From contig JAUWLW010000042.1 in assembly GCA_030613505.1 (NCBI GenBank), positions 1 through 22,790 of the forward strand: 22,790 nt of DNA, read 5' to 3'. The stretch is from Candidatus Zixiibacteriota bacterium (lineage in GTDB: Bacteria > RBG-13-66-14 > B26-G2 > WVWN01). Below, in pieces: positions 3,378 through 5,276 of the stretch. The notes under the pieces are model-generated. The model ran no database searches and was not told where the DNA came from. It saw only the letters and a list, made by a program, of their open reading frames with translations. Position numbers and translations under genes: made by a program. Numbering within the stretch: the first letter of the stretch is position 1; the number at the start of each line of letters is the position of its first letter.

Positions 3378-3829
3378 TGAAAGCTAACGAATACCGGGAC
3401 GCTACAGCTAAATATTTAGCCCGGCGTTACGCGGAAGACGGCCTTGAAGTTTTTACCGAAGTCGGATTAGGCACGTCCATCGTTGGGAAGAAGAGGAAGC
3501 TAGACGTATTAATCCTCGATAATAATACCGGGAAATCTTTCGGGTTGGAGTGTAAAGTGCAAATGGTGAGCGGTACCGCGGAGGAGAAATTATACTTCGC
3601 TTTGGAAGACATTAAAGCTATGCCGATACCGGGGGCCGTAGTATACTACGGCGGCGGTTTCACCGAGGCCTTTCTACACATGCTGGCCGCTTCCCCGTAC
3701 GCGGTATATTGTAAGCCGCCGGGTTGCGGCGAAGGAAACTCGGAAACCGACGAGTTGGATACGCTACTCGACATCCACTTCGGCCTGTTGCGCCGGCGGG
3801 TATCGGACGATAGGAAAATAACGCCTTAA
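3377..3829 (+). CDS. PD-(D/E)XK endonuclease, restriction partner of the methyltransferase
   Basis: A small 150-residue protein with a readable PD-(D/E)XK core: KLDVLIL places Asp43 on the first strand, and GLECKVQ places Glu58 and Lys60 (ECK) after a 14-residue connection; Glu28 could be the helix glutamate. SGTAEEKL (65-72) directly after the ECK strand is a feature I associate with single-domain nucleases of this superfamily. Its start overlaps the methyltransferase stop by one base, the usual type II R-M layout, so it is most likely the cognate restriction enzyme cleaving unmethylated sites. No separate DNA-recognition domain is visible, so specificity must reside in the compact fold or in a dimer. 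It could instead be a nicking or repair nuclease (for example Vsr- or HJC-like), but the operon makes restriction the best reading. The specific subfamily is not assigned. Confidence 0.8.
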   Translation: MKANEYRDATAKYLARRYAEDGLEVFTEVGLGTSIVGKKRKLDVLILDNNTGKSFGLECKVQMVSGTAEEKLYFALEDIKAMPIPGAVVYYGGGFTEAFLHMLAASPYAVYCKPPGCGEGNSETDELDTLLDIHFGLLRRRVSDDRKITP

Positions 3830-3846
3830 AGTTTTTTACACTGTAC

Positions 3847-3920
3847 GGGCGATTAGCTCAGTTGGCTAGAGCGCCTGCCTTACAAGCAGGAGGTCGGAGG
3901 TTCAAGTCCCCCATCGCCCA
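3847..3920 (+). tRNA. tRNA-Val (anticodon TAC)
   Basis: A full cloverleaf can be drawn: acceptor GGGCGAT/ATCGCCC (7 bp), D-arm GCTC/GAGC, anticodon stem CCTGC/GCAGG with loop CTTACAA (anticodon TAC, reading GTN valine codons), variable AGGTC, and T-loop TTCAAGT. The discriminator is A and no CCA is encoded. One oddity: the T-stem GGAGG/CCCCC carries an A-C mismatch in its middle pair (3898/3910). It lies 17 bp after the restriction gene with no clear promoter of its own, so it may be read from the R-M operon. Its 3' 44 nt are duplicated at 6951-6994. Confidence 0.95.
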
Positions 3921-3993: not shown

Positions 3994-4920
3994 CTACCTA
4001 AAAAGCGCCTTAACCTTCCCGAGCGATTCGGGGAAAACGGCGTCCCCTATCCAGCGGAAGTATTGGATGCGGTTGTTATAACAGTCGCTGACGTACGCGC
4101 GGGCACCCGTCGGCGAGATACCGACATCAACAGGCAGGTTGAACCCCGAACGCCACATACCGAGGAAGGAACCCGTGGCGGTGAAGTATTGGACGCGGTA
4201 ATTCTGGGTATCGACCACGTTAACGTTGCCGTTCGGCCGGAAAGCTATCCCATGAGGGTCGTAGAATTGGCCGGCACCGGCCCCACGTGAGCCCCACTTG
4301 CCGAGGAAGGACCCAGCGCCGGAGAAGTATTGTATACGGTAGTTATGAGTATCAGCTACATAAACGTTGCCGTTAGGCGCAACGCCTAAATCACGGGGAT
4401 AATCGAATTGGCCGTCGCCCGTTCCGGTCGTACCCCACTTGCCGCGGAAGGAACCCGTCGAGGTGAAGTATTGAACGCGGTCGTTAAGGGAGTCGGCGAC
4501 GTAAACGCGGCCGCGCCGCGCGACGGCTACGCCGCCAGGATAATTAAACTCGCCGTCCCCGGAGCCGAGCTTGCCCCACTTGCCAAGGAAGGAGCCGCTC
4601 GAGGTAAAGTATTGGATGCGGTTGTTATTTTGGTCGGCGACATAAATGTTTCCGTTCGGCCCAACGGTTACGCCCCTCGGACGAAAGAACTGGCTGTTAC
4701 CCGTGCCTAAAGAACCCCACTTACCGAGGGAGGAACCCGTGGCGGTGAAGTATTGGACGCGGTGGTTTTCTGAATCGACGACGTAAACGTTACCGTTCGG
4801 CGTAACGGCTACGCCTCTCGGATAATGGAGTCCGCCGTACCACATGCCTTCGTACACCCAGCTGCCGCAGGCCGCGGCGGCGACCGCCGTAACCGCTACG
4901 ATAACTAAAACCCTTTTCAT
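3994..4920 (-). CDS. NHL-repeat beta-propeller lipoprotein
   Basis: A 308-residue exported protein. The ATG at 4920 was chosen because an ideal AGGAGGT lies eight bases upstream; an upstream in-frame ATG lacks this. The N-terminus MKRVLVIVAVTAVAAAAC reads as a lipoprotein signal with a lipobox-like AAAC. The rest is six NHL repeats of about 47 residues (PRGVAVTPNGNVYVVDSENHRVQYF, then ATGS..GKWG..G.G..QF, and variants), enough to close one six-bladed propeller. NHL propellers bind proteins, RNA or ligands as scaffolds; this one should face the periplasm or outside, and its partner is unknown. The fifth blade has NVNVVD for the usual NVYVAD. The DNA repeat period of about 141 bp follows from the blades. 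The gene stands alone between two GGGCCC-type terminators and has a long structured leader. Confidence 0.88.
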   Translation of the reverse strand: MKRVLVIVAVTAVAAAACGSWVYEGMWYGGLHYPRGVAVTPNGNVYVVDSENHRVQYFTATGSSLGKWGSLGTGNSQFFRPRGVTVGPNGNIYVADQNNNRIQYFTSSGSFLGKWGKLGSGDGEFNYPGGVAVARRGRVYVADSLNDRVQYFTSTGSFRGKWGTTGTGDGQFDYPRDLGVAPNGNVYVADTHNYRIQYFSGAGSFLGKWGSRGAGAGQFYDPHGIAFRPNGNVNVVDTQNYRVQYFTATGSFLGMWRSGFNLPVDVGISPTGARAYVSDCYNNRIQYFRWIGDAVFPESLGKVKALFR

Positions 4921-4980
4921 CGTTCGACCTCCTGCTTTATAAGGAGCGCTCTCCAAAGAGCCGCGTTAGGTTAAGACTAA

Positions 4981-5132
4981 ATAGAAAACCCAGGCCGGCC
5001 TTTAGCCGAACCTGGGTAGTATTTCGTAACGCGCGGCGCGCGAGGCGCCGTGCCATACCAAACTTATTTCTCCCGACCCAGGCATACCTCACCCCTAGAA
5101 ATTATTCCGCCCGGTTACGTATACCTTCTCCC
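4981..5132 (-). promoter_or_regulatory. Candidate structured leader RNA (attenuator or riboswitch-like) upstream of the NHL gene
   Basis: Read on the minus strand, the leader can form a closing stem, GUAUACGUAAC (5114-5124) with GUUACGAAAUAC (5019-5030), around two inner stems: AUUUCU/AGAAAU (5097-5102/5066-5071) and CGGCGC/GCGCCG (5045-5050/5034-5039). Directly after it comes a terminator-like hairpin, ACCCAGG (5011-5017) with CCUGGGU (4988-4994), reinforced by CGGC/GCCG inside and followed by UUUCUAU. A second CCUGGGU (5076-5082), inside the multibranched part, could pair with the same ACCCAGG. Mutually exclusive helices of this kind are how attenuating riboswitches work. It matches no riboswitch class I can recall, and no ligand can be named. 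The 60 nt before the ATG hold another small hairpin (GCUCU/AGAGC). Confidence 0.45.
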
Positions 5133-5139
5133 AGAGCCA

Positions 5140-5167
5140 ATATTATATAACGCGGAGTTTTAGTCAA
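5140..5167 (-). promoter_or_regulatory. Promoter of the NHL lipoprotein gene
   Basis: TTGACT (5162-5167), 16-bp spacer and TAATAT (5140-5145) on the minus strand. The predicted start near 5133 gives a leader of about 210 nt, unusually long for this window, which otherwise favours very short leaders. Confidence 0.6.
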
Positions 5168-5246: not shown

Positions 5247-5276
5247 AATAAAAAGGGCCCGGGAGGGCCCTTTTTA
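5247..5276 (+). terminator. Bidirectional intrinsic terminator hairpin
   Basis: AAAAAGGGCCC-GGGA-GGGCCCTTTTT is flanked by A and T runs on both sides, so it can act on either strand. It nearly duplicates the tRNA-Val terminator (same GGGCCC stem). No convincing gene ends here on the plus strand; it probably insulates the divergent NHL and radical SAM transcription units. The stretch from 4921 to 5550 otherwise holds the NHL leader, both promoters and the radical SAM leader. Confidence 0.8.

Follow-up and report, generated by a model that had tools for sequence, protein, structure and literature searches.

In the ampC attenuator of Escherichia coli, a ribosome that binds the minimal start/stop of the leader, at the attenuator stem, prevents the terminator from forming, and this control is linked to growth rate. 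UTP-dependent pausing supplies the signal in pyrBI of the same organism. Coupling that overcomes a terminator has its textbook case in the pyrBI leader (PMC5021804), where a leader open reading frame (ORF), pyrL, overlaps the intrinsic terminator and termination is suppressed when a ribosome follows closely (PMC4824070, PMC5021804). When a stop codon was moved to 5 bp before a terminator in E. coli, termination dropped from ~90% to under 10%, and repression is slight for a terminator in the first 100 bp of an ORF, except where the polymerase pauses (PMC4824070). Amino-acid attenuators follow a spacing rule in which the stop codon lies more than 20 bp from the terminator (PMC4824070).

The leader discussed here lies upstream of an NHL-repeat lipoprotein gene in a contig of 22,790 nucleotides (JAUWLW010000042.1), the whole of which is referred to as the window. 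Judged by sequence evidence, the gene is preceded by the promoter, leader and intrinsic terminator expected of a ribosome-coupled attenuator (Table 1). As in pyrBI, an ORF in the leader overlaps the terminator. However, pyrL is longer and holds its terminator inside the ORF, whereas here the stop codon falls in the terminator loop and two more conserved hairpins come before it; the pyrBI attenuator has no homology to the present family. The ampC leader differs in that its start and stop codons are adjacent, while here they are ~27 codons apart. The trp, his and ilv attenuators also place an ORF before an intrinsic terminator, but the stop codon of the present leader is in or next to the terminator and the genes that follow are not biosynthetic. 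Furthermore, the leaders feature no run of control codons, the peptide is not conserved, the genes encode secreted proteins, and a previously proposed antiterminator overlapping the terminator is not conserved across the copies. The family is not an amino-acid biosynthesis attenuator. Like riboswitches with terminator expression platforms, it has a structured, conserved leader and terminator repeated upstream of a regulon, but it matches no Rfam class and has no conserved closing stem or antiterminator.

Copies of the leader in four congeneric genomes

A DNA search found five further copies of the leader in the window's own genome, at 75-82% identity, and additional copies in three congeners. 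An exact-pattern scan gave matches in Candidatus Coatesbacteria bin961 (CP070633) and in a metagenome-assembled genome deposited as Candidatus Zixiibacteriota (WVWN01). The latter appears to be G003, a congener of Coatesbacteria bin961, and its label is probably wrong. A covariance model built from 20 copies raised the total to ~34 in four congeneric Candidatus Coatesbacteria genomes, with 8 in the window's genome; these copies are mutually related, so that counts over them are not independent. Three of them (G3_C25, G0_C68b, and G3_C62) are borderline, scoring below ~25 bits. The model search returned no convincing copy in 37 other genomes, including ten available relatives from order to phylum. 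The two best weak matches, in G014 and G017, both outside the phylum, are by eye not the leader and look like chance. A 17.5-bit match inside the NHL coding sequence of the window is as weak as these extra-genus matches and indicates the noise level.

Rfam gave no credible family for the leader at curated or at relaxed thresholds. The leader is a new, undescribed RNA family and belongs to no known riboswitch class, in agreement with the initial annotation of this DNA, which could name none. The conserved unit begins at the TTGACT -35 box, upstream of which similarity is lost, and reaches the U-tract of the intrinsic terminator. TTGAC is found 53-60 nt before P2 in most copies, and the promoter appears to be sigma-70-like. 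An inverted repeat, AAAAAGGGCCCTCCCGGGCCCTTTTT (window 5247-5275), sits between divergent genes just upstream of the leader promoter and looks like a bidirectional terminator.

Table 1. Coordinates of the leader elements in the window (window positions unless a locus is given) and of related leaders with a different ORF end
Feature	Position	Strand	Basis or remark
Promoter-like -35 TTGACT (5167-5162) and -10 TAATAT (5145-5140)	5140-5167	-	Sequence
P2 5' arm, CCGGGC	5109-5114	-	Compensatory changes
P2 3' arm, GCCTGG, includes the G of the leader ATG	5078-5083	-	Compensatory changes
Shine-Dalgarno-like AGGGGTG in the P2 loop	5090-5096	-	AAGGGGGU, AAGGGAGU or AAGGAGGU in other copies
Leader ORF, MPGSGEISLVWHGASRAARYEILPRFG then stop; 27 codons, TAA (5004-5002) in the terminator loop	5002-5085	-	
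P3 hairpin, CGGCGC-CTCGC-GCGCCG	5034-5050	-	Compensatory changes in divergent copies
Intrinsic terminator, CCCAGG-TT-CGGC-TAAAG-GCCG-G-CCTGGG then TTTTCT; hairpin 5016-4989; ACCCAGG...CCTGGGT plus TTTTCT, 5017-4983	4982-5016	-	Compensatory changes; in all strong copies
Previously proposed closing stem, GTATACGTAAC (5124-5114) with GTTACGAAATAC (5030-5019)	5019-5124	-	Present here, not conserved in the family
Downstream gene, NHL-repeat lipoprotein, 308 aa, ATG 4920, Shine-Dalgarno AGGAGGT, ends SLGKVKALFR	3994-4920	-	
Divergent leaders with fused frame, terminator-like hairpin read through	L074:1669-1791 and 3746-3868; L075:2441-2563	-	
Leaders with ORF ending before the terminator	L067:4695-4827; L068:420-552; L071:410-543	-; +; +	

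Conserved helices

The initial annotation had described a promoter, a leader of ~210 nt, paired stretches at 5124-5114/5030-5019, a CGGCGC/GCGCCG hairpin and a terminator, and all of these are found in the window copy where it had placed them. The window leader folds more stably than dinucleotide shuffles (z -4.1, 0/200), and its minimum-energy fold has neither the closing stem nor P2. In a MAFFT alignment of the family, 95.8% of the cells in P2, P3 and the terminator together hold standard pairs, and both sides have changed in 8 pairs. These values were reached by none of 500 shuffles, and controls in which the helices were slid fell to 49% paired or less. An alignment of 38 matches fitted to the model holds 18 pairs with changes on both sides, although it leans to the model and takes in a few noise matches. 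P2 has the family consensus CCGGGC/GCCYGG and shows compensatory changes.

The leader open reading frame

In most copies, a Shine-Dalgarno-like sequence is followed after ~7 nt by an ATG at the 3' arm of P2. This start opens an ORF of 27 or 28 codons (24 in one copy), an element that the initial annotation had overlooked. Sixteen copies have the stop codon at an identical position in the terminator loop, where it is UAA, but UGA in one. Four others stop just upstream of the 5' arm of the terminator with different stop codons, and in the remaining copies the leader frame extends past the terminator. A leader ORF with a ribosome-binding site and an end that overlaps or abuts the terminator is a feature of the family, though not of every copy: ATA is the start in two copies, some divergent copies have no leader ATG, and one has an early stop in the leader frame. 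In three divergent copies from G003, the leader frame (ILPR/MLPR...) passes through the hairpin (ILPRLARWAGVGVFVFGGLLLSCDEGPT, MLPRLARWAGVGVFVFSAAYGDTYVYWYKWG) into the apparent signal peptide of the main protein. In three species, the leaders of related NHL genes share an ORF that ends just before the terminator, with no stop codon left in the loop (Table 1).

Stop codons ahead of the terminator are found in the ORF frame of one of 27 copies, as against 19 and 7 for the other two frames. Under shuffling of letters within alignment columns, ~3-4 stops were expected in the ORF frame and none was seen (P = 0.003-0.01), while stop depletion in frames 1 and 2 was not significant by the same column shuffles. 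On sequence grounds, it is likely that the leader frame is translated.

The sequence of the leader peptide is under no detectable selection. The pN/pS of the ORF is ~0.85, there is no codon-position periodicity, and indels in well-aligned copies are out of frame about as frequently as in frame, with frame-breaking indels in three copies (G1_C35b, G3_C44a, and G2_2280k). A conserved or arrest-type leader peptide finds no support, given this pN/pS and given that the terminal PRFG is dictated by the terminator sequence; both change together in G1_C35a. The leader peptide itself is probably not the effector.

A proposed ribosome-coupled attenuator

We favor the reading that these leaders attenuate transcription in the manner of pyrBI and ampC and form a genus-specific family whose terminator would be blocked by a ribosome translating the leader ORF; we give it a probability of slightly less than one half. 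The promoter would start a leader in which two hairpins and then an intrinsic terminator precede the gene. The ribosome-binding site in the P2 loop and the ATG at the 3' arm of P2 would then start a short ORF that spans P3 and reaches its stop in or at the terminator. A ribosome moving close behind RNA polymerase would cover the 5' arm of the terminator, so that no hairpin forms and the gene is transcribed by readthrough. If the leader were not translated, for example through P2 holding the start codon or through slow translation, the terminator would form and transcription would stop early. P2 could in this way limit initiation on the leader ORF, while P3, 17 nt upstream of the terminator, may act as a pause hairpin that delays the polymerase until the ribosome has caught up. 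The signal sensed may be translation capacity or growth state. The coupling model is weakened by the distance between the leader ATG and the start of the terminator, which at ~70 nt is inside the 100-bp range of E. coli (PMC4824070). The pN/pS of the ORF, the lack of codon-position periodicity, the frame-breaking indels, the early stop and the copies with ATA or no ATG also count against it, and selection to keep the ORF open, to which the stop depletion points, is only possible.

A fuller version of the coupling model is more doubtful, though possible. It would make the leaders a new class of attenuator, with the terminator loop holding the stop codon of a leader ORF whose sequence does not matter, a conserved hairpin gating the start codon, a set of surface proteins of the genus tuned by transcription-translation coupling, and the ORF fused to the main gene in some copies.

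Alternative readings

A small-molecule- or protein-sensing attenuator would use P2, P3 and the purine-rich GGAGGAAACGA as a binding site that alters terminator formation, with the open frame incidental. The purine-rich segment, which is conserved between P2 and P3, persists in copies that have no full ORF (e.g., CGGCGGTAACGA in G3_C47b and G1_C56), and it is mainly on this account that a ligand- or protein-responsive element is possible. Such an element would also suit a structure kept over divergent sequence and a leader peptide without purifying selection. However, about half of the copies lack the closing stem that a three-way aptamer would have, the alternative helix proposed to overlap the terminator is not conserved, and Rfam offers no match. 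Stop depletion that is specific to the ORF frame likewise counts against it, and on balance we consider the sensing attenuator unlikely.

The leaders could also be promoter-RNA-terminator units that make a small RNA, with constant partial readthrough to the genes and no regulation. The extent of the conserved unit, from the -35 box to the U-tract, and its ~34 copies are consistent with this. In most strong copies, however, a start codon in the same orientation follows after 15-115 nt, frequently behind a good Shine-Dalgarno sequence, as would be expected of a cis element, which renders the small-RNA reading improbable. The genes or operons that follow mostly encode secreted or membrane proteins, including NHL, PD40 and BNR propellers, lipoproteins, a membrane protein ending in SFSF and a zinc-ribbon membrane protein; G2_2280k (radical SAM/methyltransferase) and G2_2337k (uncertain) depart from this pattern. 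NHL paralogues follow many copies, and unrelated protein families follow others. The position of the leaders and the variety of the secreted-protein genes suit cis-regulation of a regulon better than they suit a mobile repeat. Short, apparently broken genes follow two leaders, G0_C9 (G000:C9 22685-22814), where ATA replaces the leader ATG, and G1_C35b (G001:C35 7424-7547), which has a 7-nt deletion.

Two further observations concern the NHL genes and their products. The window's genome (G000) shows a large expansion of NHL-repeat proteins, with at least 150 repeat matches over many genes, and only a minority of these genes carry the leader. The NHL protein has the C-terminal motif P.SLG[RK]VKALF[RK] (window 3994-4023, minus strand), as do many other secreted proteins. 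Its back-translated pattern occurs at 60 places in the window's genome and at none in a reversed control, and the motif may be a sorting signal.

The initial annotation proposed a riboswitch-like switch in which ACCCAGG pairs either with the 3' arm of the terminator or with an identical CCUGGGU (5076-5082) inside a junction closed by a long stem. Both pairings can form in the window copy. In the family, however, the central pair of the antiterminator is broken in 15 of 20 copies and other pairs in 9 and 8, without compensation or covariation, and the helix is best seen as an accident of the window copy; its CCUGGGU corresponds to the 3' arm of P2, whose sequence is GCCCGGG in most copies. P2 and P3 are conserved, but the closing stem is paired in only about half of the copies. 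Compensatory changes, sought in homologous leaders as support, occur in P2, P3 and the terminator and show no excess in the closing stem, where 71% of cells are paired and duplex energies are no better than those of shuffles. The leaders thus have no conserved closing helix of an aptamer at this stem, as a riboswitch of any class would. What survives of the proposal is its attenuation architecture, in that a structured, conserved leader with an intrinsic terminator stands between promoter and gene and is repeated before many genes. The specific switch is largely refuted and retains very little probability, and the stop codon of the leader ORF in the terminator loop makes a ribosome-coupled attenuator more likely than a riboswitch.

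Recent duplication of the 5' flanks of paralogous genes, in which nothing but the promoter would have a function, is just as improbable. It would explain the NHL paralogues behind many copies but neither the compensatory changes in three helices nor the leaders before unrelated protein families.

Implications for the genus

In an uncultured phylum, this undescribed RNA family tags genes for secreted proteins that appear to share one regulon. Should the coupling model be true, attenuation would act as a general translation-state gate on surface proteins without the use of amino-acid control codons. The ~34 copies, with stop codons in the terminator loop, before it or past it, or with the ORF fused to the gene, would then be natural variants for testing how ribosome position affects intrinsic termination.
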